NCBI GenBank assembly: GCA_951799425.1
Contig: OX637392.1
Coordinates: forward strand, 32,820,093 to 32,884,092
Reading direction: 5' to 3'
Length of the DNA stretch: 64,000 bases
DNA from: Ilex aquifolium
Lineage: Eukaryota; Streptophyta; Magnoliopsida; Aquifoliales; Aquifoliaceae
Below the pieces are notes generated by a model, which was not told where the DNA came from, did not search any database, and saw nothing but the letters and a program-made list of their open reading frames with translations. A program made the translations under genes and the position numbers. Positions within the stretch are counted from its first letter, which is position 1, and every line of letters begins with the position of its first letter. Positions 824-56,168 of this stretch are shown one piece after another.

Positions 824-1007
824 GACGTTCGAACGTGAATAGACGTTCGAATGACAGTGAGTCCCAGTACTTTGGTGTCTGCAAAGCTCTGATGGAAATG
901 AAAAATTATTGGGAGCAACCAACGTTCGAACGCCAAAATGACGTTCGAACGTGAATCAATAATTTGCACTATTGACGTTCGAACGCCAAATGACGTTCGA
1001 ACGTGAG
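824..1007 (+). repeat. Palindromic word array, CGTTCGAACG class, in U3 of LTR A
   Basis: There are six copies of a CpG-centred palindrome with core CGTTCGAACG, starting near 826, 844, 923, 942, 976 and 994. They form three pairs with spacers of 8, 9 and 8 nt (TGAATAGA, CCAAAATGA, CCAAATGA). The last word ends about 50 bp upstream of the TATA box at 1057. The same word and the same 8-nt spacer occur in the unrelated Athila LTR at 55.8-56.2 kb. Confidence 0.9.
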
Positions 1008-1056
1008 TTACGAATTCTGACTTTCAGATTCGCGCATAGGGGACCATTTCACCCCC

Positions 1057-1064
1057 TATAAATA
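1057..1064 (+). promoter_or_regulatory. LTR A promoter TATA box
   Basis: TATAAATA within CCCCCTATAAATACTTAAGG. It corresponds to the TATAAATACCTTAAGG of LTR B at about 28.64 kb, so the core promoter is conserved although the palindromes upstream differ. Confidence 0.7.
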
Positions 1065-2455
1065 CTTAAGGACACTTCCATTAGCCCCATTTCAACATTT
1101 CTGACCCTAGGAAGACTCAGAGAGGAGGAAAGAAGGGGAAAACACAAGATCAAGGGAGGATTTACACATTGAAGAGGATCAAAACTTCAAGTTTTTCAAG
1201 AACACTAAGGAAGAAGAAGGTAGGAGTTTCTTCCTATTCTCTTCCATTGAGGCTAAGGTTTATATATATGTATGTTTTGACTTTCAATCCTATATATATG
1301 ATATGAAATCATTATTTCTTGATGCTCTTGCAAAGATTACCATGTTTTGAAGGAAGCTATGGTGGAATAGCCATGAAATCTCTTTCTTTTGTCTTGAAAA
1401 CCCTAATTTTCAAGAAAAAAGGGTTTTTTCTCTCAATTTTTATTTGATCTTGGTTTCTAAAGTCCTATTCTTGATTAAATCATGTTTTCATCTAATATTT
1501 GTTCTTGTTCTAAGAAATTATGGTTTTTTTAGCAAAACCCTAAAATATTGATATCGAAATTGTGAAGGTTTAATTGATATGATCTCTTGCATATTTTAAT
1601 TCATTTATTATTGTAGTATATGATGAATTGTATAATTGTGATACTTGAATTATTAATAGAAATGGTGATTGATTAAGATTGTGGTTGTTGAGAAAAATGT
1701 TGGTTTTATCTCTTGTATGGTTTGTTGTGACGGACTTGAATTGCCTTCGAGAGCTGCCGTAGAGTGTTAGAGGTTAGTCTATCCCAGTAGGGGTGAGATG
1801 GTTTCCTAACACTTGTAGTGGATTGTTGTTTGTGAGAGCAACCACTATTGTTCACGTAGGTTCGAGGCTGAGGGATGGTATACCTTTTCTGGAAAGGATT
1901 CGTCAATGTCGTGGGAGACGGTATACGCCCTTCCTAAAATGTCTGTGATGTGCCCTGCGGGGAATGATTGACATTGTGTGATTGTGATGGCTGAACGAGG
2001 TAGAATCGTTGTGTAGATTCCTGCGACGCAACCAACATACAAGAGAATATAGAATGATGTTACTGAATTATTTATGGATTGCTTTAATTTCTTGTAAGTT
2101 ATTCCTGTCATTGATTTACTGTATTCCGTACACTTGAGATCATTACAACTATCATGGTTTTTTTCTCAAAATCTATATATGCTATTTTCCAAAAGAGACT
2201 TGCCATATTTTATTTGTTTTAAAACCTTGTTCGAGTTTGGAAGGATGTTGCTACAGAGCTTAGTGCTCACCCCCTACAAACAATATATTTTTCAGATTAT
2301 GGTTTGGAGGAGGAGTTCGGAGTTGATGAGCAGATAGCTTGGGAAACTCAATTGGATGGAAGCGTGGATCCCAAGGGGAATGTATAGAGTTGTTCTCTTT
2401 ATGTCCTAGACTAGAAGAGGATTTTGAGACAATGTATAGATGATGGAGAGTTGTT

Positions 2456-3694
2456 CTGGAGATTAGTTTGGCATTTAGACCAACATCTCTTAGCTTGCTA
2501 TAAAGTTAGTCATAGGCTTAAGCTTTCAATTACATGCGTAGAGGAAGATAGATCTTTTGGCTAAGGATCACCCTCCAAAAGTGACTAGCTTTCTTCTACT
2601 TTCAATATTTGTTATTCCATGTTTATAAGGAAGATAGATCGTCTTTTGGTTGCGGATCACCCTCCAAAATGAATAGCTTTCTTCTACTTTCAATATATGT
2701 TTCATTCACTTCCATTGTTTGAGCTTCTTTCTTCCCTTAGAGGAGTGAAACTCTTCTACTTTTCTAGAACTTCGCCAAAGCCGTGAAGGGTGGAACATGA
2801 TTCACTTATTCTTTGTCGAAGATCGGCTCTTTTTTTTTTATGCTTTACCTTGTGAACCCTCTACTTGGAGGAATGAACATCACTCAATTTTTTAGCTTTG
2901 CCAAAGCTATGAAGAGTGAGTAGTTTCTCATTCACTCTTTAGTAAGAGGTGTTGGACATGTATAAATTATCCGGAAGTTATATCTGTGCAATTTCGATTA
3001 TGCTTAATGCTTTATATTCCCCATGCTCATTGAATGATTGATTGCATCTAGCAAAACTAAGGTACTTTGTATAACCGTGAGTTCTTTCTATAACATAGAT
3101 AACTCTTGCATAGAAAGACTCATCGGTTCAAGGCAAGTACCCCGGCTAGATCTTCATGACTACCCTTCAATCTTCACCATTATTGTGCTTCAATTAAAGA
3201 ATGGAAATGAAACATTAATGTCATGATTGTATGTCTTGTAGAAACACCTGCTTGTTTGTAGACGGGTTGAGTCTCGGCACAGATAATTCTTGTAAACTTC
3301 TAGAAAGACATCGGAATCATGTGCTTAATTCCCACAATCCACCTTTATCTTCTGATTAACCTGCTGTTGACACGGGGGTTAATTGAGTTATCTAGCACAA
3401 ATATACTAAACCGGATGATTAACTACATGTCCAGATCCTCGAACTAAAGAGTGACCTTTTTTTGTGCTTATCTTATCTTCTGTCTATAAAACCTTCTTGG
3501 AAAGAATCTTATATTCTGTCTAGGATACCCCATACATCACTCTACTTCAAATCTCAAGGATTACAATCACTAGGTCTCCACCACTACTTACCTCAAAACA
3601 TTAACAAGAGTTCCCTGTGGATTCGACTTCAGACTCAAACCGGATTATTACTACAGCTTGACCGCCTACACTTAGGTGTACACATTTTAGATCA
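2456..3694 (+). repeat. T1: Athila-type LTR, 5' part missing
   Basis: This stretch aligns closely with 56392-57569 of the E57 LTR. Shared blocks include the repeated CCCTCCAAA / TAGCTTTCTTCTACTTT units, GAATGATTGATTGCATCTAGC, and the ending GCTTGACCGCCTACACTTAGGTGTACACA...AGATCA. The 3' end at 3694 is the natural LTR end, and minus-strand gag of element M begins directly after it, so T1 inserted into M. About 700 bp of U3, where E57 keeps its palindromes, is missing and LTR A abuts instead. Probably a former solo LTR or element end, later truncated. Confidence 0.75.
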
Positions 3695-5067
3695 ATCCAA
3701 AGTCTGAGCCTTGAAATCATTGAATGCATGAGTGGACTGAGTATTAAAACTCATTGACTTTGAATGAACTGGTTGATGTTGTGTTCTAAACTTCTCTTGT
3801 GTGGGGGTTGAAAAGGCTGATATGGTTGCTAAGTCCGGGGTTGTGGTGAAGATGGACCTAGTGGTTGACTCATAGGCTGTGTATTTTTTTCAACTGAAAT
3901 TCTGGTGATTCCACCACCCTGGATTATAGGTTTTAGAATAGGGATTGAAATAAAGCTTGTTAAAGTTTGAAATGATATTGATTTGTTCCATCAAGACCTC
4001 TTTGAATGCTCGAATGGTGGGACATTCCCCCGTGGGATGTCTTGACAAAGCACAGATTCCACACAACTGTTCTGTGGGTGACACAACCCGAAACTTCCTT
4101 GAGTGTTTTCATCTCTAGAGCATCCAGCTTTCGAGACAAAGTAGTCATTATGGCCCCTAATTCATCATCCTCTTTTAACGTGTATTTTCCTCATTGGGAT
4201 GAAGTTGGTTTGGTTTCAAAAATATTTGGTGAGGTCGAGTCCCACATTTGGGAACTCTCAGAAATGGTATCAAAAAACTCGAATGCCTCATCGGGACTCT
4301 TACCCATGAATTCTCCATCGAGTATCATTTTAACAAACTGACGCATTGTAGACGGGAGGGCATCATAAAAGAAACCGACTAAGGTCCAACTCTCAAATGC
4401 ATGATGTGGGCAAGCTTGGAGAAGATCCATAAATCTTTCCCAACATTGGTAAAAATTTTCTCTTTCTTTCACAGAAAAATTCATGATTTGACGTCTCAAT
4501 GCATTAGTGCGATGTACAGGAAAGAACTTTTTAAAAAATTCAATTTGCAAAACTTGCCAACTAGGAATGCTTTTAAAGAATTTAGCCACTTTTTAGCGTT
4601 ATCCTTCTAAGGGAAAGGAAAATTTTTCAACTGGGCCATTTCAGAATTATCTTGTAATGCACCACATGCTTCACCAAATTCTTTCATATGCAAATAAGGG
4701 TTTTCATACTGAAGATCATGAAACTGAGGCAAAAGTTGTATTGTTCCTGCATTGATTTTAAAATTTGGAGCATTTGTGGGAAAAGAAAAACATGAAGGGA
4801 CACTAGTACGTGTGGGATGCAAATGTTCTCTTGAAGGTCTAACATTTTGAACTACCTCTTGTTCCCTTCGATTATTATTAGCCATGCTTAACTCAAAAGA
4901 GTCCAACGATGCTTGTGATGATGAAGATGATGAAGAAGAAGAACTAGATTGATTTACAGACCCTACTGATAACTTAAGAAACATAAAATATTAAAATAAA
5001 ACAAATAGTGTATACACATATAATACAAACTAGATGACTTCCTTATTTATTTTGAAATCACTGTAAC
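3695..5067 (-). mobile_element. Element M: Athila-type gag and leader, minus strand, truncated
   Basis: Read on the minus strand, this encodes an Athila-lineage gag protein that aligns with E57 gag throughout. It has a Ser-rich start, then the NAPNFKINAGTIQLLPQFHD and NPYLHMKEFGEACG blocks, then HRTNALRRQIMNFSVKE and PHHAFESWTLVGFFYDALPS, and finally the NPYSKTYNPGWWNH region near 3.9 kb. The gag start is near 4984, about 80 bp downstream of the PBS, as expected. Everything beyond the gag C-terminal part has been lost to T1. It is a broken fossil with several breaks. Confidence 0.85.
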
Positions 5068-5085
5068 TCCCCGGCAACGACCCCA
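5068..5085 (-). other. Primer binding site of element M (tRNA-Asp-like)
   Basis: The minus strand reads TGGGGTCGTTGCCGGGGA just inside the LTR end, close to the TGGCGCCGTTGCCGGGGA site that Athila/Tat elements pair with the 3' end of tRNA-Asp. This identifies 5093-6628 as the 5' LTR of a minus-strand element. Confidence 0.8.
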
Positions 5086-5092: not shown

Positions 5093-6628
5093 TGATCTGA
5101 TCTGCTTTAAATCATACATCAAGTATTAGTGGTCAAATTGTAGTATTTATTGGTTTAACTTTGAGGTCGAACCCACATGGAGCTAACTATTGGTACTCAA
5201 AACAGAAAAAGGTAAGATTGCCGTGTGTGCTATGTGCAAAGGAAGAGCTTATGGTGTGAGCTTAGAATTATCAAATAAACACTTAATTAAAATTTGAATT
5301 ACAATGATAAAAAGAATAATACTCTTCAGTTCAGGGATTCAACATGAATTATATTGTTTGTTTATGAAAATGTCACCTTACAACAATTAACTCCCATTTT
5401 ATTGGAAAGTCAACCAGTAGGTTTGATGTATAACTGAACCATACCACAACAGCTAGTTAAGTTAGTCAAAAGTTCTATGTACCATGCAACAACCAAATAA
5501 CCCTACTAAACCCGAAGGTGAACCATTCAAAAGGTTTACTCTAGCTATTCGATTGACAGGTTGATGATTTAATGAAGATGTAGTTCCGGTTTATGCATTG
5601 AATGAAAAGCATTGGCTATGGCAAGATTTAACCCCTCTATAACTAATCTCCCAACTGTTACATAAAATCTAACTGCTTGCGCCACTGAATCATGTATGTA
5701 ATAACTTATAAACTGGTATATAGCAATAAGCTCCGCTCGGTGTTCATAACCATGAGTATATTATAGTAATAACCATCCATCAAATAAGAGAGGTGTAAAC
5801 ATTAACGCATAAATAAAACATTGACATTTTTATAGCTCAAACAATATTACACATGCATTCACCCTTCACCGAAAAGTATAAATGGACTACTCACGCTTCA
5901 TTGCTATAGACGAGCAAGAAGAATGATATAATCCCATTACAACTGAAAACAAAATACAACAAGTCCTTCCTGATGAATAGTTAAAATATTGCCACTCTTA
6001 TTACATCTAGGGCACAAAAGTGGGAGAGCTTCAACCCTCCAAGTAGAAATGATAAAAGGAAATGTAGAAGTAAGAAAAGTATTGGCTGGGAAGTGATTAG
6101 GGCAGGGTTTCGCTCTTTATGACTGTAAAAACTCTCTCTGAAGCCTCTCTTTCTTTCTTCATTCTCTCCTTTTTTGAACTGGCTTGCACTCTCATGGATC
6201 ACTCTTGACAGTGAGCTGAATAGAGCTATTTATAGGCACCAGAAGAGGGGTAGAGGCAACAATCACCCAAACAGGCCAATCAGGGCTTGTTGTTGCTTAA
6301 ATGGACCAATAGGAGGAAGAGAGCAAAGGCGATTTAGCCACTGTTTGGACGCCACCACCACCGTCCGGACGGTGCTAAATCTCTGGTTTTTCATGCTTAG
6401 TAGCCTCCTTTTTTGACTTGTTGACTTCTGAATTACACTCGCCACCCTTGCTTTATTAAACCTCTGCACTTTGATCCTCTTAAACTTCCGTATTTATCCT
6501 TAAAACCCTACAAAATATACAAACTACACATTAACCTAAATACTTTATAAATTAACCACTTTAACCTTATTTATGCACATAATTAACCCTAAACTCTAAT
6601 TCATTTATGCACTTTCTAGGGTTAATCA
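5093..6628 (-). repeat. 5' LTR of element M
   Basis: The LTR is bounded by TGATC...AATCA on the plus strand (TGATTAACCC...AGATCA in element orientation) and is 1536 bp long. Its 3' end carries CTACAATTTGACCAC followed by TACTTG, as in S1, so M and S1 belong to one LTR lineage. A TATA box reads CCTATAAATAG on the minus strand near 6226-6236. U3 (to the right) holds a GTTTGGAC/GTCCGGAC word pair at 6343-6370. Sequence of host element H resumes at 6629, so M was inserted into H. Confidence 0.8.
6343..6370 (-). repeat. Palindromic word pair, GTCCGGAC class, in U3 of LTR M
   Basis: GTTTGGAC and GTCCGGAC are separated by exactly 12 nt (GCCACCACCACC). The pair lies about 107 bp upstream of the TATA box in element orientation. 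The same 8-nt word and 12-nt spacer recur twice at 32526-32618. Confidence 0.75.
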
Positions 6629-7009: not shown

Positions 7010-7170
7010 AGCTGACAAGTGGCAGCCCAAGAAGGCGACACCTAGCACTACTGCAAGACACCAACCTTCCGGAAGGTTAAGGAAGGTGGTTAGGACCCTG
7101 ACAAGTGGCAGCTCCAGAAGAATGACACCTAGGACCCCTACTGCAAGGCATAACCTTTTGGAAGGTTAGG
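7010..7170 (+). repeat. Tandem duplication with CCTTCCGGAAGG-class words in U3 of S1
   Basis: A unit of about 88 bp is present twice (TGACAAGTGGCAGC...GACACCTAG...CTGCAAG...). Each copy ends with a palindrome: AACCTTCCGGAAGGTT at 7063-7078 and the decayed AACCTTTTGGAAGGTT at 7152-7167. The second copy ends about 30 bp upstream of the TATA box. A related word (ACCTTCTAGAAGGT) is found in the unrelated solo LTR S2. Confidence 0.8.
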
Positions 7171-9190: not shown

Positions 9191-11617
9191 TGTGACGCCC
9201 CAAAATTTGGGGGTCCGTTGATCACCCATCAACCCGCGGAACACCTGTGGATATCGTGTAACTCGATATCACACCGTTGTGTCCCATTTACCGAGATCCA
9301 AAATTTAACAAAATCAGACAGATTCTCCTTTGTACGGGGAGCTCTACCCAAAACCCAACCTGTACAATATACAATACATGACCCATCCGAGGCCCAATAT
9401 AACACAATGACCGCACCGGGTCCATTTATGAGTAAAAATTGACCACACCGGGTCCATTTATCTATACTCATATAAAAACATACAAGATTATATTAAAAAC
9501 AGTACATATGAGTTCCATTACAACTCTCTTATATAAAATTACATGTCAAAACTAGTTTGCTCCAAAAGTTTTACAAAAGGAGTTATAAAAGCCACAAGTC
9601 AGCTTTCTTCACCCTTGCGGCCCCAAATGAGAGCCGTCCACCGGCATATATCCCGCACCTGAAATGTTTTCCCCGTATAGGGTGAGCCACGCCCAGTAGA
9701 GTAATTCCTACAGAGGCTACTCCCCACCTAAGTGCATATGCAATGTTCACATTCAATAATTCATACTCACATCAACATTCCAAGTAAGAATATGCAATTC
9801 TAAGTTGGAATTCTACATGCCATGCTATGAAATGAGATGAAACTCACTCATGCAACTCAATCCGAGCCCTCACCGTCTCCCACCACACAATGCAATGCAA
9901 GTGTGTAAAACCTTCATCATAGATGAATTACCTCCAATGCTTGTTTAAAATAAAATCATGTGTTTATAAAAATCAAGCATTGTTGGATGTTGCACATCCA
10001 AGAGTATGTTTATAAAACAAAATCTTTAACAAAATCTTGTGTCTTTGTTGGGCAACGAATTTTGGAATTTCACTGCCGGCTCCATACGCCTAATTCACTT
10101 TTTTTTACTTGCACCGACGGAAGTGAATAAACCAGTAACCGGGTCTTGCACCCGAGTGAACGTCTATCCCTTCTTGCTATACCCGACACAAGTTTTTCCA
10201 TGCATGCAACCGTGCGACTCAGTAGGATCTTCAATCCCACTTTCCCGAGCCCACCCTTCAACCACCAAGTATGATGTTTGAATTAACCATGCACACGCAC
10301 ACACACACCCATACTCATGCCTAAGCCCATGAATGGGATGCCTCCGTGCAAATGCAATGTAATGTACCATCGCATATCAATGTCAAGTCCCATATGTAAT
10401 GAATGCTATATGGATCAATTTAACCACATACTTCAACATATGCCATGGCAATTCATATCTTATGCATATAAATTCCATAATTCACCCCAATGCCAACATA
10501 TCATAAGCACACATCGACATTTACATTTCCAATTATAAATCATATCATAAGCATATGATTTCACTTTACCACATCATCCAAGCATGTTATAGCATAATAT
10601 CATGCAATTAACACACTTTATTTCACATAGGCATTTTATCAAACACCTTCAAGGCACCAAATCATGTAATCACATAAAATGCTCAAATTTGTCACATAAC
10701 TCAAAAAAAATCAGAATACATGATTTCCACATACCCAATTATCAAAACATCCAAGAAATCACAAATGAGCAATTTCTATTTACCAATTCACACTAGAATT
10801 GAACTTACCCATTTCCTTTAAACCAACTATAATAGGCAAGTGTTCAAAACACACAAAACAGCCCACACATTCCCTAAGAACACCATAGGTTAGAAATAAA
10901 CCAAAGTAAGAGGGAACCCTACCTCTTGAAGCGTAGAAATGAAGGTAGAACCTTTAAGAACACCAATACAAGCCCAAAAGTCTTGATTTCCCCAAACTCC
11001 CTCCTTGGATCTTCGGTGAAATCCCTTTTTTTTGGTATGGTTGTGTAGTCCTCGTCGCGTAGATGAAGTTTAATTCTTGGTCCGACGAATTCCGACCGAC
11101 GGAACTCCGGGAATCGAAGAAAAAAGATTGGATTTTCCTCTTGTCTCTCCCTCTTTCTCCCAACGTTGAAGAAACTGGTTTTCAGCAGAGAAATCTGCTG
11201 AAAATCAGATATTTTACCCCTTTTTATAATTTTAAAAACTTGGCCCGAGTCGCGCCACATGTCCCCTACTTGTCCGGGTCCGTTTTCGCTCCGAAACGAT
11301 TAAATTTCGCTCCGGTTCAAGCTCAAATATTTTTATTTCAACTTTTTTTAAATTATTTTCTAAATATTAAAATTTTATTACAAATTCGTTTTTGGGGGTC
11401 ACCGGACGCCCGTCGTCTCGAAAAACATGAAAAATCTGACTATCTCGGAATTCGGCGAAATTTGACAGGGTAACTAGATTTCGCGATACGAATCCAATGG
11501 CGAAGTCCGTTTCCTCATCCAAGGTCTAGAGAAGTACTTATTTCAAATCCGCAGAGCGGTGACAAATTATTATTTTGCCATTTTTCAGAAAAAGTTCAAA
11601 TTCACCCGGGTCTTACA
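9191..11617 (-). repeat. 3' LTR of E2
   Basis: On the plus strand it reads TGTGACGCCCC...TTACA. It is matched over its full length by 16684-19109. In element orientation it starts TGTAAGACCCGGG. A direct repeat GACCRCACCGGGTCC occurs twice at about 9411 and 9439, in the same slot where relatives S2 and S3 carry palindromic words. Confidence 0.92.
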
Positions 11618-19734: not shown

Positions 19735-22066
19735 TGTGACGCCCCTAAAACCGGGGGTCCTTTGTCAAATTGTTGATCACCCATCAATCTGCAGAAATAC
19801 CCGTGAATGCCGCATAACCTGACACCACGGCACAAACAATAAAAAGTTTGGACAGAGTCTCCCTTGTACCGGGAACTCCCAAACGCGTAACATGTGTACA
19901 TTTAAACCACATGACCCATCCGAGGTCCAATATACCACTATTTATACTCCATTATTATTCATTTGCATCATTTGTATAAAAGGACTCAAAGCCCGGAAGC
20001 ATAGGAAAACATTCTCAAAATTTCAGATTTTTGGAAAACCTACCAGAAGGTTTTGTCAGACCTTCTAGAAGGTTTTCCACAACATTCCAACACATGTATA
20101 ATGAATTTTTTTCATACAAAACATGGTTTATACAAGTCCTATTACAATCATTTCCATATAATTACATGCCCAACACCAAATTCCACAAAAGTTTTACAAA
20201 AATGGTTTTAAAAGCCACAAGTCTGCTTTCCTTCATCTTTGAGGCCCCGAGTGAGAGCCTTCCACCGGCGTATAGCCTGCACCTGAAATGTTTTCCCATA
20301 AAGGGTGAGCCACGCTCAATAGGGTATCTCCTACAGAGACTATTCCCCAACCTAAGTGCATATGAAATGTTCACATGCAACATTCAATAAGCAACAACCA
20401 TCCCAAACAAGAATATGCAATTCAATGTTAGAATTCTACCATGCCATGCCAAGAAATGAGATGAGAATCACTCATGCACTTTAACCCGAGCCCTCACAAG
20501 CTCCCACAACACAATGCAATGCCAATGTGTAATAAATCCGCCATTGATGTTATACATCCAATGACTATTTTTATAAAACAAAATCATGTGTCTTTGTTGG
20601 GTAGCATATTTTTGGTGTCGCACCGCCGATTCTGCACACCGATACACTTTTTTGGACTTGCATCGACGAAAGTGTATTAACCAGTAACCGGGTCTTGCAC
20701 CCGAGGGAGTATCTAGCCCTTCTTGTTATACTCGACACAATTTATTCATGCAACCCGTACAATTCTGTTGAACCTTGGTCCAGCTATACCGAGTCCACTT
20801 TTCAACCACCAAGGATGGTGTTTGACCCAACAACATGCACACACCCCCACACTCATGCCTCATGCCCATGAATGTGATGTCTTCGTGCATATGCAATGTA
20901 ATGAATGCCATATGGACTATTTTTACCACATTTCAACACATACCATGGATAATTATATCCTAAGCAAATAATTTCCATAATTCACCCCAATGCTAATATA
21001 TCATAAGCACATATCAACATTTACAATTTCAATTGTAAATCACATCATAAGTATATGATTTCAATTTAACACATCATCCAATCATGTTATTCCAATTTCA
21101 TCAAAACAACAATTTTAATCATTCAAGGCATTTTATCAAACACCCATACAAGGTAGAACTCATGTAAGCATATAACACGCCCAAATTTTCACATTTCTCA
21201 AGAAATTATATTAAACAATTTCTACATACCCAATTTAAGATAGAATTTATTCTACCCATTTTTAATACCCATTTCACCAAATCAGCAACAATAGGCAAGT
21301 GTTAAAATACATCTAACAACCTAACCATTTCATATTTCAAGCCTAAGTTGGGAATAAACCTAAGTAGAAAGAAAACCCTAACTCTTGAAGTGTAATACAC
21401 CCGTAGAAGACTCCAAGAATACAACCCAAGCTCTAATCCAAGCTTCCCCCCAAAATCTCTTCTTTTTTTTTTTTTTTATCTTCGGTGCAATTCCTCATTT
21501 TTGGTATGGTTGTGTAGCCCTCGTCGAGGAGATTGACTTTAATTCTTGGCTCGAGTTGACTCGAGCGACAGAGAGGCATAGATCGTAGAGAAAAGTCTTG
21601 AAATCTCTCTTTTTTTTTCTCCTTTCCCTCTCTTCTCTTCCAATGTAAAGACCCAGCTGATGAATAGGGCAAAAATATGATTTTCTGCCCTATTTATACC
21701 CTTTAAATGCTTGGTCCACGTCATGCCACACGTCCCCCATTCCCGGGTCCGTATTTGCCCCGGTTCAAGTTCAAAATACTTTTATTTCAACTTACTTTAA
21801 ATTATTTTCTAAATTTTAAAAATTTATTAAAAATTTGGTTTTTTGGGTCACCCAAGACCCGAACGCCTCGTAAAATGCGAAAAATCTGACTACCTTGAAA
21901 TTCGACGAAATTTGTCTGGGTAACTAAATTTCGCGAGACAAATCCAAAGGTGAGGTCCGTTTCGTCATCCTAGTTCTATAAAAATTCAGGTTTTCAACCC
22001 ATATCAAAATGACAAATTACCGTTTTGTCCTTTTTCATAAAAGTTCAAATTTACTCAGGTTTTACA
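19735..22066 (-). mobile_element. S2: solo LTR related to E2, nested in H
   Basis: The plus strand reads TGTGACGCCCC...TTTTACA, 2332 bp, flanked by perfect 5-bp duplications GGATG (19730-19734 and 22067-22071). It shares with the E2 LTRs the blocks GGAGTTCC/GGGAACTCCC near the edge, AGCCACGCYCARTAG, GCACCCGAG and the ACTCAGGTTTTACA end. No internal region remains, so the element was reduced by recombination between its two LTRs. It is clearly more diverged from the E2 LTRs than those are from each other, so it is an older insertion or another subfamily. Confidence 0.9.
20036..20078 (-). repeat. Palindromic words, CCTTCTAGAAGG class, in S2
   Basis: ACCTACCAGAAGGT and ACCTTCTAGAAGGT, each flanked by AAAA/TTTT, are separated by 8 nt. 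They lie about 300-345 bp from the LTR 3' end in element orientation. The same slot in relative S3 holds GTACCGGTAC words instead. Confidence 0.7.
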
Positions 22067-27993: not shown

Positions 27994-29773
27994 TATAAGA
28001 CCCCATATAAAATTTAAAAGTAGATAACATTATATTAAGAGTACATTCAAAAGGATGATAGAAACTTCAAATCGTTGTTGAAAGATTGATCATGAAATTT
28101 GGGCTTCGCGCGATAGTTTCGTGTCGATAGTTTCGGAGTGTTTAAGCTTGAGAATGGTGGCTTGTTAATTTTCTAAATAATTTTAGGTCAAAATAAGGTC
28201 TTCATTAAATTCGGAAGGCCGAGAAATATTGGGGGAGGTAATATGGGTTGTATTAGAAGGTTGGAAGTATTCCAGAGTTAAAACGCATTTTGGAGAGAAT
28301 TCAAGTAGGAAGGAATTTGAAACTACCTTAGTGTTTCAGCCATAAATTTATATTCTGATCTCCTATTGATATGTTTTGGACTAAAGAAATTAGAATTCAT
28401 GGGCTACAAAAAGTGTATTTCACAGAATTTTTGTGAATCAACTTCAAACTAGGCAAAATCGAGTCAGAAGTCTGGACAAAAAGTTGACACTGTCTAGATG
28501 CCCCAAAAAATAGAATTTGAGGTTCTGACAGAGAGGATATACTAGGAGTAAATATCCTCCGACACTTGTATTACTGTCAAGATGCCATGACGAAAACTAC
28601 AGCGATCATATTTTAGCACTGGGTTCGTTTTTCACCTTATAAATACCTTAAGGATGTTCCTTAGGACAATTTTAAGCAGTTGTGAACCATAGGACGCCAA
28701 GAGTGTGAGAGGGAAGAGAAAAGGCTAGAAGAATCAAAAAGCTAAGGTTGCATCAAACAGCGGATTAAAAGTAGGATGTCTTTCTCAAATTCAAGATTGA
28801 GGCTAGAGTTATTGTTTATATGCTTTCAATCCTTATATATATGCTAGATAGAAAAATATTAGGGATTCTTTTCAACTATGTGAATTGTTTCTTGAAAATA
28901 ATTGATTTCTATCTAGGATTCTTTTATTCTTTATTGAAAAATCCTAGTTCGTGAATTATAACCTAACTTATCCATGTTTTATATCAAAAATTGCAAGTTA
29001 TTGATTTCTAAAACTCTAGTTTTGGTTATGATCAATGTAAATATGTTTATTCAAGATCTCTTGCATATTTTCTTAACTTTTATTCTTCTTGAAAAGTTAT
29101 GGAATCATGATTCTTGATTGTAGTTGGTTTTGTTGAAAATTTTGTGAAAAATATCTTATGTATGAGTGGGTGTGATTGACATGGGTTGCAATCTACCAGG
29201 TATCACAGAGGGGTTAAACGAGTTTCTTACCTTGAAGGCTTTGAAGGTTTCTTAGCACTCGTAGTGGAGTTGGCGCCTTTTGGGAACCAAACCACTATTC
29301 GCTTATGGTGATCGAGGTGGAAGGTTAGTATACTATTTTTGGGAAGTTACGTTAATGTCGATGCGTCTATTTACGCGTTTCTTGAAAATGGGTCATCCTT
29401 GCAAGGATTGTATTGTCGATTGGGTGTGTGTGTGTGGGTCGGGATATTTTCGATGTGTGGATTCATGTTAGCCAACCTGGAGATGTACATGAGAAATATA
29501 TTGATTATGTTGATGTACGTGGCTTAAGAGTTGTGATCTTATTTACTCATGAATTTTTACTATGTTTACCGTAAACCTGAGATGTTATCAATTGTCACAG
29601 TTTTAATTCAAATCTTTATACATTATTTTGTAGAGATCTTACTATTTTATGTACTTCAAAACCTTGTTGGGTTTGAGAAGATTTCTCTACTTGGCTTATT
29701 GGCTTATCCTACGATATATATAATGTTTTGAATTTCAATTTCTAGGAAGATCTCGGACTACGTGAGTAAGTAG

Positions 29774-32168
29774 TGTAAAACCCGAGTAAATTTAAAATTT
29801 TTCAGAAAAAGGGTAAAATAGTCATTTGCCACTATAATGCGGGAATTAAAATACGTGTTCTCTAGAGCTTGTATGACACAACGGACTTCGCCGTTGGATT
29901 CGTATCGCGAAATCAAGTCATCCAGACTAATTTCGTCGAATTCCAAGATAGTCGGATTTTTCACGTTTTACGAGACGACTGTGTCGAATGACCTCATAAA
30001 GGTCCCCATAAGTGGAAAATATAAAATTTCCTTATAATTGAATTAAATTTCAAATAAAATTAATTTGAACTTAACCGGGATCAAATAAATCGTTTCAAGG
30101 CGAAAACGGACCCGAACAAGTGGGGGGCGTGTGGCGCGATCTGAGCCAAGCCTTGGAAATTATAAATAGGGTTAAAAAATCAGATATTTGGCACAAATAT
30201 CTCTGATTTTTCTGTTGGCTTGAACGTTGGAGAGAAAAAGGGAGAGAAAGAGAGAAATCCAATATTTCTTTCATCGATTCTCGGAGTTCTGTCGGTCGGA
30301 ATCTGTCGAGCCAAGAGTTAAAGTCGATCTACTCGACGAGGGCTACGCAACCACACCAAGAATGAAAGATTTCACCGAAGATCCAAAGAGAAGATTTTGG
30401 GAAACCAAGACTTTGAGGTTGGTGTTGGTGTTCTTGGAGGTTCTATGACTTCTATTACGCTTCAAGAGGTAGGGTTCTTCCTACTTTGGTTTTATTCCAC
30501 CCTTGGGTGTTCATAAACAAAGGGTTAGATATAGAAATTGACCCAAGACATGTCTATGGTAATGGAAATGAGGAAATTTGACATATAAATGATTTAGGCT
30601 AATTTCTAGCTTGATTTTGGTATGTGGAAGTTACTTGAATAATTTCTTGTGACTTGGTGAAATTTTGGGCATGTTATGTGTTTAACATGATTATTGCCTT
30701 GAAGGTGTTTGATAAAATGCCTTGAGTGATTGGAATTTGGCATTTGGTGGGCATGCTATATGTTTATATTGTGCCTTATGAAGTGGTTTAAATTGTCCAT
30801 ATGACATTCATTACATATGAGACATGACATTGATATGCAATGGTTCATTACATTGCATTTGCACAGAGACATCGCATCATGAGGGTGTGTGTGCATAGTT
30901 GTCGTCATCACCTCACTTGGTGGATGGCAGGTGGACTTGGAAAAGTTGGGTTGATGATCCGACTAAGTCGCGCGGTTGCATGAAAATTTGGTTGGGGTAG
31001 CAAGAAGGGCCAGACTATCCCTCTAGTGAGAGACCCGGCGATTGGATACGCACTCCGTTGGTATAAGAGCCCATAAAGTGTGTCGGTGTACGCGGAACCG
31101 TTGGTGGAAGTCCATGAATTCCATGTCGGTTGGGTGCCATTGGTGTAAGTCCATGAATATCCACCACAAGAAAGACCCTAGATTTGTAAGTGTCATTTGA
31201 TGTGTAACATAGATGACGGAGTCATTCACATGGGTACTTGCATGTGTTGAGGAGTCGGGAAGGGCTCGGGTTGATGTGCGTGAGTAAGTCTCATCTCATT
31301 TCATGGCATAGCATAGTGAATTCCTACATGGAATACATATTCTTGAGTGGAATGTTATAAAGTGTTGATCGGTTGCATTGTGAACATTTCATATGCATCT
31401 AGGGTGAGGAGTAGCCTTTGTAGGGGATACTCTATTGAGCGTAGCTCACCCTATACGGGAAAACATTTTAGGTGTGGGATACACGCGGGTGGACGGCTCT
31501 CATTTGGAGCCTCAAGGGTGAAGAAAGCCGGAATGTGGCTTTAGTTGGAGTTTTTGTAAAAAAAAAATATTTATGAAAACTTAGTTTTGGCATGTAAATT
31601 TATGTAAGTGAATGTATTAGAACTTGTGAGTACCAAATTTTGTGTGGGAAATGATGTTAAACATGTATTGGATGGATGTGGAAGGATTTGGAATGGATTT
31701 GAAATCCAAAGCAGTTGAAATAGGCAAAAATGGACAGACAGTACCGGTACGCTGCTGTCCAGTGGACAAACCATACCGGTACGCAGTACCAATACACTTT
31801 TTCCAGTAGGCAGACAGTACTGGTACAGCGTACCGGTACGCTTTTTCCAGCGGGCAAACCGTACCGGTACGCAGTACCGGTACTCTTTCCAAAAATTTTA
31901 AATTTTAAAACTATTTTGCCATGTTTTCAGCCTATGTTTTCCTTCCCTCCAAAGATGTAAATGGACCATAATGGAGTATAAACCATGGTATATTGGACCT
32001 TGGTTGGATCCAATGAACAATGGAACACTGGTTACACTTGTGGGCTATAATCCCGGTTAAGGGGATGCTATCGACGTGGTGTCGGGTTAAGCGACATCCA
32101 AGGGTATTTTCGCGGGTTGATGGATGATCAACGGTTAATAAAGAACCCCCGGTATTAGGGGCGTCACA
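29774..32168 (+). mobile_element. S3: solo LTR of the E2/S2 family, plus strand, inside LTR B
   Basis: TGTAAAACCCGAGTAAATTT...GGGGCGTCACA, 2395 bp. It has the same edges and internal order as the E2 and S2 LTRs, in opposite orientation. It has a TATA box (ATTATAAATAGGG) near 30.16 kb and the CCCTATACGGGAAAACATTTTAGGTG block near 31.45 kb. The flanks AGTAG (29769-29773) and ATTAG (32169-32173) differ at one base and probably represent the 5-bp target duplication. LTR B resumes on the right. No internal region remains. Confidence 0.85.
31741..31883 (+). repeat. Palindromic word array, GTACCGGTAC class, in S3
   Basis: Seven words lie at 31741, 31773, 31786, 31817, 31830, 31861 and 31874. Six form three pairs with a 3-nt spacer (GCA, AGC, GCA). 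Variants (GTACCAATAC, GTACTGGTAC) differ at the central CpG or next to it. The words sit in repeated units flanked by CAGTGGACAAACC-like sequence. The position is about 285-430 bp from the LTR 3' end, the slot used by different words in S2. Confidence 0.9.
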
Positions 32169-32486: not shown

Positions 32487-33078
32487 ACTTGTGTCCGGAG
32501 GGTTAGAGTCTGTAGCATCAATTGCGTCCGAACGGTCAATTGGGTGTCCGGACAGTCAAACTTCTCTAGAATTGATACTTTAATACTTGAGTCTGGATAG
32601 TCAATGTTGCGTCTGGACGGTGATCTTCTGTCTTCAATTTTCACTTCGGCCTCGATAAGTCAACTATTCAAACTTCAACCCTTGTGTCCTGACTGTGATA
32701 CTTATATCCATGCGGTGCTATTTATTCAATTTCTATTGGGTTTTGTGCTCCAATTTTCTGGGAATGGATTTAGATCATCCACGAGTATCCATTTTGATTT
32801 AAATCTCAATTCATACTTCAAATTATGGTTTTGCCATCCTGAGTCCAATTCATTCATCCACAGCAACTGATTCATCAAGTATCTTCAATTTTATTTCAAT
32901 TCTCCTATTTTTCCTAGAAAGTAAATCAATCACTAAAAATAATATTTAAATTGAAAATCCCACATTTAATTATATATAAGCTCAAATACTACGAATTAGC
33001 CATGAATTAAATGTAATAAAATACTCTTTTAAAGGCTAATCAGGTATCAAGGTCTCTTGTGGCAATGTAGCTTGAACT
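32487..33078. repeat. Anonymous repeat with GTCCGGAC-class words; remainder unassigned
   Basis: Just beyond LTR B are words GTCCGGAG (32493), GTCCGAAC and GTCCGGAC (32526 and 32546, 12-nt spacer), and GTCTGGAT and GTCTGGAC (32591 and 32611, 12-nt spacer). The 8 + 12 geometry equals that in LTR M, so this may be part of an unrecognised LTR. From about 32.66 to 33.08 kb I see no gene or clear repeat, only AT-rich sequence. Confidence 0.6.
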
Positions 33079-42724: not shown

Positions 42725-43215
42725 CCCTTGAGAGCTAGGGCCTTCTATAATTATAAAAAAAAAAAATTAGATAGTTTCCCTTGTCTTAGCATAGAGGCTC
42801 AGACTCAATGAAGGACTAGAGCCTTCCACACTTAGGAAGTTTTTAAGATAAGACCCCTTACCATAGAAAAAGGCTCAGCCTAAATGAAGGGCTAGGGCCT
42901 TCTATACCCAAGAAAAATATTTAACATCTGCCCCTTTCCCTAAGCAAAGATGCTAGGCATCAATGAAGGGCTAGGGCCTTCTATACTTGGAAAAAAATTC
43001 AAGATATGTCCCCTTCCCCTATAAAAGAGGCTCTGCCTCAATGAATGGCTAGAGCCTTCTATAATTAGAAAATTTTATAGATAGGTCATCTTCCCTAAGC
43101 AAATAAACTCAACCTAAATGAAGGGCTAGGGCCTTCCATACAAAGAAAATTGTTAAGATATGTCTGCTTCCCCTAGCAAAAAGGGTTGGCCGTAATGAAA
43201 AGGTATGGCCTTCTA
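42725..43215 (+). repeat. Minisatellite, about 78 bp x 7
   Basis: The landmark GCTAGGGCCTTCTATA (with variants) recurs at about 42735, 42815, 42891, 42970, 43048, 43125 and 43202, giving steps of 76-80 bp. Each unit also has TCCCCTTCCCTAAGCAAA-like sequence and GGCTCAGCCTAAATGAAG. Tandem repeats of this size are common in the 3' untranslated part of Tat-type LTR elements, which fits its place just downstream of the PF04195-like gene. Confidence 0.9.
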
Positions 43216-43559
43216 TTCTTAGTTTCTTCTTCTATCCACTGCAGTGACCCACCCAACAAATTGGCCTCAAATATTATCCATCTTGGCTTACACCGTCGTG
43301 CCTACACTTGGGCACAGTTTTATCGGATGGCTGCAATTGATCTAGGGCTCTACCTCTGTAAGTAATTTTGCCCTTCCTACCTTGGTAGTAGGTTGAATTG
43401 CTCCCAGGTCTTCCTAGGTCTTTTCCCATAATTCCATCCTTGGGACTTTCCTTTGCCTCGACAAAGGCTAATTGTATAAAAATTTTACGAAGGTACTTTG
43501 ATGAACACTCAATATTACATTATTTCATAGTCTTCCACGTCTAACTTAGGATTGCTAAC
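43216..43559. other. Anonymous spacer
   Basis: No coding region or repeat recognised between the minisatellite and the LTR-like sequence that starts at 43560. Confidence 0.5.
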
Positions 43560-45343
43560 TGATGAGCACGTAATATTGCATATTTAACGGCCTCATTACA
43601 TGCATTTTAACTCACTTTGCATTTAATTACTTAGAGTTAATCGAAGCTATGAATAATGTGAAAATTTTGATGTTGCAGGTAATCATAGGGTAAATGATGG
43701 CTTTCGGAACCCTAAAACTAAGTGTGGATGAGTGGTGAAGTGATATACACATTACATGACGATTAGGAGGCTTTAAAGTGAAAGAAATCAAGGTGGTAGA
43801 GGTACTTGGTATCATAGGTACCGGTATCTAAGCCTACTTGAATTTTGGTATCGGCACCCGCACCATTTGGTAGCAGTACCTCGATATTCCCCATTTTTTA
43901 CTATGATCCACTTCGAATATGAAAAAGTTGAAACCATGAAAGTTGTAGATCTGGATGTCCTCTTTCTTGTGTCAGAAATTTAAGCTTAATCGGACAGTTT
44001 GATCAAAATTTATGACAAATTTACGAATACTGGTCCTGAGCTAGCATCCCCCTTACGACCTACCAGTAGAAGGAAACCAAAACCTACCGGTAGGTTTTGC
44101 CTACTAGACAAAAACCTACCAGTAGGTTTTGCTAAAAAATACCAGATTCTGCAACTCAAGCTCCACTTGCTTGGGGGGGCCACCAAAGCTTCTCTCACAC
44201 ATCTGCTGACATAGTCTACATACAACCATGCCTACAAGACCCTAAAATCTAAATTTTGAGGATTTAGGATGGGAAAGGAAGAGAAGAAGGAGGTAGGCAT
44301 CGTGGGTACAGGCTAAGCATGTCCTAGCCTGTCCAATGCATCAAATCACTTCCCATTAATGGGAAGCCTGCTCCCACAGGCCATAGGGGGATGATGGACA
44401 AAAATGCATAATCCTTACACCGTTTATTCAGCTTCACACAAGCTTTTGAGGGGGGAGGCTACCTAAGCTTAGGAGTAGTTTTAGAGATAGAAAGCTCAAG
44501 GAAAAAGATGAAGTTAGAGGGAGAAAGTTGGGTTTTCATATTTCTTTATCATTTTCAGTGTTGTAAGCTTTAAACTACTTGTAATCTTTCCCTTTTTCAC
44601 TTTCAACTCTTTCATCCAAGTTGTATGCAAGCTTAGCTAAATATTTCTAGCATTTCAAGTTCTACATTTGGGTATTTGTTTCCAATCTTTGTATTTTGAC
44701 TATGAATGTCATTTCTCTTGTAGTTTAACTCTTATATTGCATTAATACTAGTTCCATGTTTCATTTCTTCATCATGTCTCTTTACATTGTGTTTGTCTTT
44801 GAATTTATTATGAGTAGCTAAGTTTTAGTTGGCTAATCCAAGGGAGATTTCCTCTTGGGTATGCTAAATCAACTCTCATTCACTCCTCCTCGTAGTGTAA
44901 AGTGTTTTGTTTGACTAGGTTGAGTGCGGACGTGGGTGTGAGCTCTTGATACACCAAGACTTGCCACAGGGTATGCCTACACCTCCATATTAGTCTCTCA
45001 CTTCCTACGAATCAATCAAGCACCAAGATACTATTGGAAGAATATTTTGAGTTGATTTGGTATTCCCATTGGAATGACCCTTTCGTATTAGCCAACCTTG
45101 TTTTTCATTGCATTTTTATCAAAAACTTCACTCATCAAAACACAAACTCACAAGATTTTACACTTTTCTATTTTTAAAAAATTATCTTCACACAATTCAA
45201 CCTTCTTTCCCTCAGGAGACGACCTTGGAATACCCATTCCAAGTAAAACCCGACACTCGAAAGTCTCTCTTCGCTTAGAGAGCACTTTTGCACACACACT
45301 CACATTTTTATCCACACACACGTTTTTCCCATTTCTAGCATCA
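43560..45343 (+). repeat. Probable solo LTR (TGATGAGC...GCATCA)
   Basis: It begins TGATGAGCACGTAATATTGC, as LTRs of the Tat/Ogre kind do, and ends TTCTAGCATCA, so the edges form a TGATG/CATCA inverted repeat. The 3' part has TTCGTATTAGCC, GGAGACGACCTTGGAATACC and CCGACACTCG, a leader-like arrangement. No TGGCGCC primer site follows. A CTAAC duplicate is found at 43555-43559 and 45437-45441, but it lies in a CTAA repeat and is weak evidence for a target duplication. No coding region. Confidence 0.55.
43817..44125 (+). repeat. Palindromic words in the 43.6-kb LTR: GGTACCGG and CTACCGGTAG classes
   Basis: GGTACCGGTATC (about 43817) and GGTATCGGCACC (about 43848) are followed 200 bp later by CTACCAGTAG (44060), CTACCGGTAG (44084, inside a perfect 20-bp palindrome) and CTACCAGTAG (44116). 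Two word types occur in one LTR. The CTACCGGTAG type recurs at 45.62-45.85 kb. Confidence 0.8.
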
Positions 45344-45443: not shown

Positions 45444-46400
45444 ACTAACTTGTCTAACTTATTGCATTTTGTAGCTTAAGTTTTGTTTTTGGTGTTATTG
45501 GTATTTTAGGTATAAATATGGAGTTTTAGCATTAATATGATGAAAAGGTGGCAATGAGTTTTCTCAAGATTAGATAAAGTTGGAGGCCTTGTAAAGTCAA
45601 TTGGAGAAAAGAGAAGAACTACTAGTAGGTGTTCTACCGATATGAAGACATAAAAACAATGTTCTACTGGTAGGAAATATGTTCTACCAGTAGCAGAGCA
45701 CATAGAATTTTTCAAGTTTTCATCAAAGAAGTTCTACCAGTAGTTGTATCGTGTTCTACTAGTAGCTGAAGCCCCAATATGTTTATCAGAAGAGTCCTAC
45801 CGGATTAGTTCTTGAAAGACAAAGAACTACCGGTAGGTCTACTGTGCCACTGGTAGATCGAGGCAGATATTCCCGGAAAGTTTAATTAAAGATCAGATTT
45901 TACCTAATCTTTTGGGGATTCTCAACCAATAGAATTGAGAGATATTTTATGAATTGATATCTTTCAAAGAGCTGAAGATTCTCCTTCAAAATCATTATAA
46001 ATAGAGACTCTTTAATAAATCAAATAGAGGTTCACAGCTTTCTAGATACGTTTTAGGAGTTTTTTTTTTTATTTTCTTGCTACATAATTTTAGGGTTTGC
46101 TCTACATAATTTCATTTAAATTTCTGTTCTTTTGACTTATTTGGTAAAGCAAATTCAATTTCTGTTGTCTTTACTTCGGAAGTTTTGTTATTTAAATTCG
46201 GTCTTTCAATACAAGCAATCAATTTCAATTTTTTTATTTTCTTTTTTTGCATTCAGTTATGTCTTCTTTTAAGCTTTATGTCATTTTCATTATCATAAGT
46301 GAGTAGTCTTCTTCTAGATGATCTGAGGAAGGAGTCCCAAACCTATGAAATAGGGCCTATGCCTTAAACTAGGGTTTTAATGTTTATGTGATTGATTAAA
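45444..46400 (+). repeat. LTR-like block with palindromic words and a TATA box
   Basis: No coding region is present. It holds CTACTAGTAG (45619), CTACTGGTAG (45664), CTACCAGTAG (45684 and 45734), CTACTAGTAG (45756) and CTACCGGTAG (45827). These are followed by a TATA box TATAAATAG (45996-46004) about 160 bp after the last full word. The arrangement of palindromes, then TATA box, then T-rich leader is that of the LTRs here, so I call it an LTR by analogy. Its ends were not found. Confidence 0.5.
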
Positions 46401-53370: not shown

Positions 53371-53740
53371 ATTTGGGCTTAAAGCGAAAAGGTTTCATCT
53401 GAATACAGAGGAACAAGAACTAGGCCCATCAAAGGCTATGGTCCTTCTTTCTTTTGTATAAAAGGCTATGGTCCCTTAGAATCATGGTATTAGTTATTGT
53501 ACCGCCACAACTATTTTTTTTGGGTCTTTTGGAGGTCGGTATATTTAATTAGATTTACTGTTGTTTAAGTCCATACAAAATTATTTTTGCAAAAACTCCA
53601 CCAGTACATATATTAATACATGAAATATTAATAGGGCTCATGTAAATTTTTTGCCTATAGCACAGGTTTACGTTGGGCTGCCACTGATTTTAATAGCTAG
53701 ATTTTTCAAGAGTTTTTTAGAAGTCAGTGCACTATTATTG
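53371..53740. other. Anonymous spacer
   Basis: It contains a doubled AAAGGCTATGGTCC near 53.43 and 53.46 kb and nothing else that I recognise. Confidence 0.5.
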
Positions 53741-55691
53741 TGTAACACCCCGCATTTTCTTTTATATATGTATATAGATATATAGTAGATAATTGAGGTA
53801 AAAATGGGGATATGTGTAGTGACGGTAGGAATAAAAACAAAAACTAGAGATACAAATTGATTGGAGAGTTAAGTTTCGAAGGTGTGTAAATTTGAGAAGA
53901 GGGATTATGGAAGTTTCTAAATATTTTTAGGTCAAAATAAGTTCTCCGTTGAATCCGGAAGGTCGAAAAACATTGGGAGAGGTAATATGGGGTGTATTGG
54001 AAGTTAGGAAGTATTCCGGAGTGAAAACACACTTAGAGAGAATTTGGGTAAAAAAGAGTTGGGACACCTTCTAGTATTTTGGTCATAACTTTTTATCCTT
54101 ATATCCAATTGATTTTAAATTTGTACAGTAGATAGTAGACATCTAGGGCTACAAAAGTGTATCTCATGAAAATTTTCCAATTCGACCTCTAAATGGGTCA
54201 AAAATTCCCTGGAAGTCGGAGCAAAAATCTGTCAAACCGTACCGGTACGATACCGTACCGGTACGCCCGACTCCAGTAGCTTTGGAGTACCAGTACTGAG
54301 TACCGGTACGGTACGATTTTCTCTGACACTCGCCGAACAGTTAAAAAGTCAGGATTTTTTGGTTTAAAACACCATCTCAAGCCCTCATTTGCCCCATTCT
54401 TCCATCTCACTCTCACCCCAAACATCTTAGAGCTCTAAGAGAAGAGAAAATGAGAGAAAAACACAAAGATCTTGAGAGAGTTACCCCTTATAGAGATCAA
54501 AACCGAAATTCCTCAAGAACACCATTATTCTACTCTCTTCTTCTACACTTTCACTACACCCTTACCCACACCTCTTGGAATCCTAGAGAGAGTCTTAGAA
54601 AAGAATAAAGAAGGAGAAAACACAAGATCAAAAGGGAAAAACAAAGGATTTAAGAGTGATTCAAGATCAAACCCTAGATTTTCAAGAACATCAAGGTAGG
54701 GGTTTTCTTCCATTCTTTTACATTGAGGCTAGGTTTATTTATATGTATATCTTCACTCTAAATGTTATATGTATGCTATCCAATCCTTAATTCTTGCTAT
54801 TCTTGCAATTAATGCCATGTGGAAAATATTGTGATTGTTGGGTAACCCTTAAATCTCCTTGCTTGCTACCAAACCCTAGTCTTCAAGGGAAATGTGTTTT
54901 TCTCTTGACTTCTCCTTTGTTATTGATTTCAATACATGATTGTTCCTTTGTTTTGAATTCTAAGCTTGATATTCTTTATTCTTGGTTCCAAGACTTGAGT
55001 TTTCTTTTGGTCTTGATTTCTAAGCTTCATAATCATTTGCTCTTGATTTCACACCTTGATAGTCGTTTGTTATTTATTTTCATACATGATTGTTCCGTTA
55101 AATCTTACTTTCTCCTTTGTCCATGATTTTCAAGCTTGGTTCGCCTTTATTCTTTATTCTCCAAGCTTAATATCCATTTGTAATGATTCCAAAGTTTGAT
55201 TACTCATAGGTTCTTGATTTCAAAACTTTAGTGTTTCATATTGAACAACAAAATGGTATTTATGATGATCTCTTGTACATTTTCTTATATTGCTCTTTGT
55301 ACAACTACTTGAGAAAATTGGGGGTTTATGGAATTGTTTGTTAATGGAGGAAATTGTGGATATCGTATTTCTTGTTTGGTTGTTTGGAGGAATATGAGTG
55401 AGAGGTTCCTTGTAAGGATGCTCATCCCTTCTCAAGAGGTTCCCGGTAAGGATGCTTGAGAATCAAAGATGATCTAAAAGGGGGTGGAGGTTACCACAAA
55501 GTATGCCACCTACCGAAAGAATTGTTGGGAATTGGGGACTTGTGTGATTGTTGGTATTTTATTTCTTGTGTGGTTGTACGATACGAACATGGATTACTAT
55601 TGACCGGGTATCATGTAGTGGGTGATTAGTACTTAAAGTTGACATATTATTATGACATTTTAAAACTAACTGTACTTTAATGGAGTTTAAG
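53741..55691 (+). repeat. LTR C (family 1), interrupted on the right by E57
   Basis: It starts TGTAACACCCCGC. It aligns with LTRs A and B through GAGGTAATATGGGGTGTATTG, GGAAGTATTCCGGAGTG, GATAGTAGACATCTAGGGCT and TTCGACCTCTAAATGGGTCA. No polypurine tract precedes it, so it may be a solo or 5' LTR. Its U3 slot carries GTACCGGTAC words. E57 begins at 55692 inside it, judging by the match of ACTGTACTTTAATGGAGTTT with LTR B near 29.66 kb. The rest lies beyond the window. Confidence 0.75.
54239..54309 (+). repeat. Palindromic word array, GTACCGGTAC class, in U3 of LTR C
   Basis: Words lie at 54239 and 54255 (6-nt spacer, each within CGTACCGGTACG), and at 54287 (GTACCAGTAC) and 54300 (3-nt spacer TGA). 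A half word GTAC follows at 54311. The array occupies exactly the place where LTR A has CGTTCGAACG words. Confidence 0.88.
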
Positions 55692-55806
55692 TGATGTCAT
55701 TTCAGGCCCTAAACTGAACAAGGACCCAAGAACAACAAGTACCATACTTGGATGCAACACCACCACATTAGAGCCAAAATTGGAGCAGCTTGGAGCACAG
55801 CTAGGA

Positions 55807-56168
55807 CGTTCGAACGCCACCTCACGTTCGAACATCCACATTACACTGTAGCAGACTCAACTGCTGAGAGAAGGCATGTTGCAGTTAGGAAAGAAGACTG
55901 GAGCTCTGAAGCACTTGAGTGTCACATTCGAACGCCAACTCACGTTCGAACGTGCACTTGAGTTGATGGAAGACCAGACTACTGCAAAGAGTTGGAACTG
56001 AACTTCACAGAAGACCAACAGACCACTCGAGTGAAAGGGTCAGAGCAAATCTGGCGTTCGAACGCCCTTAGTGCAAAAACAGAAGAAACGTTCGAACGGC
56101 AGTCAACGTTCGAACGCCCTTAGTGCAAAAACAGAAACAACGTTCGAACGCCAACTCACGTTCGAACG
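55807..56168 (+). repeat. Palindromic word array, CGTTCGAACG class, in U3 of E57
   Basis: Nine words lie at about 55807, 55825, 55925, 55943, 56055, 56089, 56107, 56141 and 56159. Eight of them form four pairs, each with exactly an 8-nt spacer (CCACCTCA, CCAACTCA, GCAGTCAA, CCAACTCA). A 52-bp tandem duplication (CCCTTAGTGCAAAAACAGAA) carries some of them. The array ends about 95 bp upstream of the TATA box. Confidence 0.92.

Follow-up and report, generated by a model that had tools for sequence, protein, structure and literature searches.

Arrays of short, identical palindromic words centred on CG are carried by many long terminal repeats (LTRs) of retrotransposons in Ilex aquifolium, and are probably promoter-proximal sites for dimeric, class-specific proteins. 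These arrays were characterized in a 64-kb stretch of DNA (C2:32820093-32884092 of the 800-Mb assembly), hereafter referred to as the window, together with stretches of contigs C1 (200 kb) and C3 (60 kb), giving 324 kb in all. Further sequence came from 20 short stretches holding LTR relatives and from 1.5 kb beyond the window end; C1 positions are counted from 20,000,000 unless given in full. Four words define the classes designated A (GTACCGGTAC), T (CGTTCGAACG), G (CGTCCGGACG) and K (CTACCGGTAG), and a catalogue tolerating up to two decay-type changes per word yields 27 arrays. An earlier note on this DNA had reported CpG-palindrome arrays in many LTRs, and its description holds: the palindrome-word arrays are real and genome-wide.

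The words occur well above chance. The window and the C1 stretch (264 kb) contain 118 CG-centred 10-bp palindromes, compared with an expectation of 25.8 and a maximum of 39 in 200 shuffles of the arms among CG sites, and the four words account for 94 of them (GTACCGGTAC 39, CGTTCGAACG 33, CGTCCGGACG 13 and CTACCGGTAG 9). They are also clustered, a neighbour of the same word lying within 130 bp for 39/39 A, 31/33 T, 11/13 G and 9/12 K words over the 324 kb. Arrays exceed those of shuffled sequence: the window has 4 arrays of at least three identical CG-centred 8-bp palindromes and the C1 stretch has 15, whereas none arose in any of 10 dinucleotide shuffles of either, and GC-centred 8-bp palindromes form no array of at least three in either stretch. 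AT- and TA-centred arrays are above the shuffles too (3 and 3 in the window, 16 and 13 in the C1 stretch), partly as simple AT repeats. Genome-wide, pairs of T words 0-20 nt apart number 10,553, with 0 for the reversed control, while the 60-kb C3 stretch is poorer, with nine CG-centred 10-bp palindromes, three of them K words. Words of this kind were also seen in viral contigs of IMG/VR, where the 4 and 18 stretches concerned (GC 0.34-0.71) are not used as cross-species evidence; one such contig (34% GC) holds eight GTACCGGTAC words at positions 4222-4382, mostly in a single array.

In the window, classes T and A are the strongly represented ones. The arrays and their associated features are as follows:

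560..816, plus strand: U3 flank belonging to the first LTR; the 54.2-kb LTR has a homologous flank
826..1003, plus strand: class T CGTTCGAACG array of the first LTR, with five perfect words and one CpG-decayed word at spacings of 18, 79, 19, 34 and 18
1057..1062, plus strand: TATAAA, 53 bp past the last word of the 826 array
6360..6373, minus strand: class G CCGTCCGGACGG, with one perfect word (CGTCCGGACG at 6362) and a decayed partner
7064..7165, plus strand: CCTTCCGGAAGG word and a decayed second word; their LTR is a relative of the one at 6.36 kb
20038..20076, unstranded: CCTTCTAGAAGG with one degraded partner; both flanks of their LTR are homologous to the 31.7-kb LTR (A) and to C1 70666 (K)
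31741..31883, unstranded: class A GTACCGGTAC array, with spacings of 13 and 31-32 and the companion TTCCAGTAGG between two doublets
32525..32619, unstranded: decayed class G words CGTCCGAACG, TGTCCGGACA and CGTCTGGACG
44060..44125, unstranded: class K CTACCGGTAG, with one perfect and two decayed words
45619..45836, plus strand: class K CTACCGGTAG, with one perfect and five decayed words
54239..54309, plus strand: class A GTACCGGTAC array, in an LTR with flanks matching the first LTR
55807..56168, plus strand: class T CGTTCGAACG array, in the LTR preceding a Ty3/gypsy element, with spacings that include 18 and 34
56263..56268, plus strand: TATAAA, 94 bp past the last word of the 55807 array

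Individual arrays are homogeneous in word and characteristic in spacing. In each of the 26 arrays that have a perfect word, the perfect words belong to a single class (A 10, T 6, K 6, G 4), and across all stretches adjacent perfect words up to 130 bp apart are of the same class in 126 of 126 cases. The shortest spacing is 17-18 in class T (5 arrays), 12-13 in A (8), 20-24 in K (6) and 20-23 in G (4), the ranges of K and G overlapping. This comparison used 23 of the 27 arrays, four having been dropped as copies of others, and a separation of classes as strong arose in 0 of 100,000 label shuffles, a figure that is overstated because arrays of one family are non-independent. The class spacing recurs in LTRs with unmatched flanks, namely at 826 and 55807 for T, and at 31741, 54239, C1 114327 and C1 149177 for A. 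Moreover, a companion motif, CTACTGGAA, first spotted by eye and then counted on either strand, lies within 60 bp of an A, K or G array in all six of its occurrences in the 324 kb, of which such zones make up 2.2%; ACTGGAA falls in these zones in 11 of 66 cases. The five words can also be arranged as a chain of single symmetric pair changes, as can 49 of 200,000 random and 768 of 200,000 composition-matched sets; the chain hangs on the rare CTTCCGGAAG, was noticed afterwards, and carries little weight.

The position of the arrays relative to the promoter is steady in the family of the first LTR. A genome-wide first look for relatives of the 826 LTR gave 3436 candidates, of which 40 were scored, and 20 of the 39 other listed places were studied. 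These 20 relatives share 87-96% identity over the U3 flank and hold three to seven words each (at most one base off), the number varying largely by 18-bp steps. The last word starts 62-63 bp upstream of TATAAA in 18 of them; in the remaining two, at 79 and 81 bp, the expected word is absent or differs by more than one base. Over the whole catalogue, 16 of the 27 arrays have a TATAAA no more than 260 bp away to one side or both, a moderate excess over 1476 of 5000 random placements. Neutral slippage, in which the arrays would be CpG-rich by accident, would account for the variation in 18-bp steps. It is extremely improbable, given the four identical words in unrelated families, the steady TATA distance and the failure of GC-centred palindromes to make arrays of three.

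Words decay mainly through CpG deamination. Among one-base-off words near perfect ones in the 264 kb, 20 of 23 differ by a CpG transition, and in the 20 relatives of the 826 LTR the one-off words comprise 18 CpG transitions out of 24, five transversions and one other transition; in CGTTCGAACG, 6 of the 10 bases belong to CpG. Because CpG transitions dominate, the arrays are likely to have been CpG-methylated after insertion, with words that were perfect at the start.

The same slot may hold different words in related LTRs. For this comparison, the arrays were cut out and 350-bp flanks on each side were aligned. The LTRs at 826 (T) and 54239 (A) match at 79.6% over 250 bp on the left and 73.6% over 91 bp on the right; those at 20038 (CCTTCTAGAAGG), 31741 (A) and C1 70666 (K) match at 69-77% and 73-81% on the two sides; and 44060 (K) and C1 198633 (A) match at 73.5% over 317 bp and 81.6% over 49 bp. 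In the case of C1 11521 (G) and 7064 (CCTTCCGGAAGG), a single flank matches (71.4% over 192 bp), and the two words, CCGTCCGGACGG and CCTTCCGGAAGG, are one symmetric pair apart. The earlier claim that close relatives carry different words in one slot is thus borne out as to the slot, by both flanks in three sets and by one flank in a fourth, but not as to closeness, the switched relatives being only about 69-82% identical. Among 350-bp-flank matches of at least 100 bp, every pair at 82% or above has one common class. When the flanks are lengthened to 1 kb, arrays of unlike class are in some cases linked by stretches of 101-213 bp at 82-87%; several of these stretches (e.g. at C1 11521, 25070 and 187554) sit just outside the LTR, and therefore speak to the relatedness of element interiors and not to the slot.

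A genome-wide search gave a similar picture for a single short flank. The U3 stretch CTGGAAGTNNNAGCAAAA is followed 4-30 nt on by CGTYCGRACG in 106 + 159 hits (265) and by STACCGGTAS in 96 + 188 hits (284), with 0 in the reversed control for each. Hits are not equivalent to LTRs, as a single LTR may give two, and 33 rows of the STACCGGTAS list come from one tandem array near 28.2 Mb of C1. This LTR-derived, satellite-like array (C1:28180195-28262083) has 17 listed units, with 10 of 16 steps measuring 5124 bp, and every listed unit holds one common U3 flank and GTACCGGTAC words. Vertical inheritance of one ancient, common U3, with apparent switches reflecting misaligned flanks or nested insertions, would fit the stability of class in close relatives. 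It is nevertheless very unlikely, in view of these hundreds of hits in which one flank precedes either word within 30 nt, and of the flank homology on both sides of the array in three LTR sets.

Judged from sequence comparison, word class appears to be inherited on short branches and to change on longer ones, because the close copies of the 826 LTR, at 87-96% identity, keep class T in 20 of 20 cases. At greater depth, the data support the earlier note's view that word class does not follow element ancestry, since LTRs that show no similarity once their words are masked share a word, and homologous slots differ in word. With the words masked, the T carriers 826, 55807 and C1 28647 show no mutual blastn similarity at E 0.01. 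The exchange of cassettes, by which recombination or template switching carried whole arrays between families, would explain the class spacing and companion motifs common to several families, as well as the conserved flanks to either side of an array that has changed. Short phrases in unrelated T carriers do look alike by eye, among them TTTGCACTA in the 24-base spacer of the 826 and 55807 arrays. The missing similarity among those three unrelated carriers speaks against it for class T, so that this explanation of the earlier note is less supported and appears rather unlikely.

Some of these elements carry a second, internal array of the same class ahead of an open reading frame (ORF) after pol. 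In the element at C1 23681-44355, each LTR contains a T array, and a third one (28647-28910) sits past the integrase region and ahead of an ORF. The element around C1 186796-197750, with gag, protease, reverse transcriptase, RNase H and integrase (Pfam), has G arrays at 187554-187667 and 190879-191087, the latter preceding an ORF. The former is not part of the 609 bp that align with the 5' copy, which has no counterpart of it; it is nonetheless placed, putatively, inside the 3' LTR, because the LTR-bordering sequence of other elements starts only near 187880. For the element behind the 55.8-kb LTR, a T array past the window end was predicted and then found, with five perfect and further decayed words 293-574 bp out, a TATA and then an ORF. 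In 3/3 internal arrays the TATA follows the last word by 13 bp, and the internal class matches that of the LTR (T/T and G/G).

The three post-pol ORFs are located at C1 20027785-20028444, at C1 20189677-20190660 and at positions 805-1353 of the 1.5 kb past the window. Those of the C1 G and T elements are homologous (43% over 182 aa, E 8e-40). Against PF20167 ('putative plant transposon protein', cut-off 45 bits), the G-element ORF scores 97.4 bits, and the T-element ORFs score 39.8 and 33.8 bits, under the cut-off. A search for relatives with a 328-aa query gave none at E 0.001, and one with the alignment as query gave three. It is conceivable, although quite doubtful, that this PF20167-family ORF encodes the reader of its own element's word class, with the internal array as its promoter and unrelated elements hitch-hiking on the product. 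Such a system would make word classes rival regulatory codes within one genome, and would mean that LTR retrotransposons can encode a sequence-specific activator or anti-silencer of their own.

The arrays could alternatively be selected or tolerated as RNA hairpins, serving as a source of small RNA or as structure in the element RNA, and not as protein sites. All five arrays that were folded beat all 200 shuffles (z -4.5 to -10), a result that the palindromes themselves entail, and maize Sirevirus LTR palindromes, located in the LTR regulatory region, are described as small-RNA hotspots (Bousios et al. 2016, as cited in the available text of PMC5311732 and PMC10760457). RNA pairing, another explanation offered by the earlier note, is therefore feasible. 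Yet inverted repeats would suffice for it, without each word having to be palindromic, and the steady TATA distance and the second array ahead of an internal ORF suit a promoter role; as the cause of these arrays, hairpins are unlikely.

Among the three explanations of the earlier note, recognition of a symmetric CpG site by a dimer is best supported. A symmetric site of about one helical turn, a class-specific spacing, a steady distance to TATA and a double use within one element are what a dimeric DNA-binding regulator would need. Under this protein-site model, each LTR family bears several copies of one self-complementary CpG-centred word at its class-specific spacing, shortly upstream of the TATA box in several families and, in some Ty3/gypsy families, again before the TATA box of the post-pol ORF. 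A particular dimeric sequence-specific protein would probably recognize each word class and activate or de-silence these promoters; it could come from the host, or be the product of one element on which other elements draw as well. Arrays would grow via short tandem duplication, in 18-bp steps for class T; over longer divergence a family would swap class with its flanks kept, and unrelated families would converge on one class because of their common protein. The idea that LBD transcription factors are the readers drew no support from the literature listing or from the available part of PMC11524276. Further candidate readings, neither of them adopted, would be a tRNA B-box and a site for a CXC domain (TTYGAA).

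Several observations weigh against this model. TATAAA is absent within 260 bp of 11 of the 27 arrays. In the window, the GTCCGGAC, CTACCGGTAG and CCTTCYRGAAGG classes are thin, which counts against the model for CCTTCYRGAAGG and GTCCGGAC: the CCTTCYRGAAGG class occurs at 7065 and 20061, each time as one word with a degraded partner. Outside the window, by contrast, CGTCCGGACG and CTACCGGTAG account for four arrays each among the 27 in the catalogue. The K array at C1 45116 includes a decayed CTTCCGGAAG-type word, so these two classes may mix, and one decayed word past the window is equally near to classes G and T. Moreover, the 55.8-kb element and the C1 T element are members of one family, which thus supplies two of the three internal arrays and leaves two independent families in all.

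Beyond the arrays, the element behind the 55807 LTR encodes gag at 57677-58453 (PF03732) and an RNase H/integrase region at 61033-62493, the best named relatives of which are eudicot proteins, while a Tf2-1-type SH3 tail (Pfam) precedes the 826 LTR. Some carriers are presumably chromovirus or Athila elements, lineage names given in the earlier note. Direct copies 84-92% alike at 2833-3462 and 56718-57337 indicate that a relative of the 55.8-kb element's sequence also lies near the window start, and six diverged tandem copies about 77 bp apart occupy 42759-43226. Some LTRs are free of words. At C1 20079217-20093040, an LTR pair with 1768-bp LTRs that are 100% identical is without CG-containing palindromes of at least 8 bp; thus, not all young LTR elements here use words. 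Meanwhile, the LTR at window 9191-11617 has none of the catalogued word arrays, and by eye an interrupted dyad, GACCCGGTGYGGTC, appears in two copies near one end of it (9191-9600).

Plant LTRs such as ONSEN contain heat-shock elements; CTTCCGGAAG and CTTCTAGAAG fit TTCnnGAA, and the other classes do not. In the mostly open-access literature searched, no report was found that describes such arrays for Ty3/gypsy elements, a spacing particular to each class, or a change of word within one slot, and a search by the letters of the words gave no retrotransposon paper by title among the matches listed.

The earlier note knew of no named system that matches, but the repeated motifs (RMs) of Sireviruses, which are Ty1/copia elements, form palindromic CpG-rich arrays upstream of the LTR TATA; each element uses a single word and has additional copies ahead of env, and the words of divergent elements can be almost identical (Bousios et al. 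2010; PMC2829016, as far as its text was available). The elements described here likewise have a repeated palindromic LTR word, clustered upstream of TATA (at the 62-63 bp noted above in one family), and arrays before an ORF in the env position, a putative env, in three elements of two families and of classes T and G. The RM is called Sirevirus-specific within that paper's set, whereas the carriers examined here, of which a subset was typed, have a PF03732 gag and reverse transcriptase-RNase H ahead of integrase, the Ty3/gypsy order. A further difference is that four or five words coexist here, with class-specific spacing and different words in homologous slots. As for the Sirevirus CGG-CCG core, CCGG is present in classes A, K, G and CCTTCCGGAAGG, and class T has TTCGAA instead; Tnd-1 lacks the core as well (PMC2829016, available text).

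For motif arrays that differ among relatives yet are present in an unrelated element, the closest case already worked out is that of the VANC proteins, whose target motifs in VANDAL elements form arrays of short motifs in noncoding parts, with a known binding protein (Hosaka et al. 2017; PMC5735166). In the available text of that paper, the motif differs between related elements and recurs in an unrelated one, as is found here, and the word 'palindrome' is absent. VANDALs are not retrotransposons, whereas the carriers here have retroelement domains, and the PF20167 ORF is only a candidate for a counterpart of the protein that is known there. The Ty3/gypsy lineage Del resembles the present elements in its variable CpG-rich LTR region, with plastic 5' CpG islands proposed as a moving target for silencing; it differs in that the available text describes no palindromic words and reports eudicot Del without CpG islands (Cruz et al. 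2014; PMC4029996).

The kind of array is therefore known from Sirevirus RMs, and its sharing across Ty3/gypsy families, the class spacing and the same-slot switching are additions. If the words are sites of distinct trans-factors, the genome would record the regulatory code of each family, its changes and the families that share it, and the escape of LTR promoters from host control, or their attraction of it, would become directly testable. The cis-architecture of the Ty1/copia Sireviruses would then extend to Ty3/gypsy elements.

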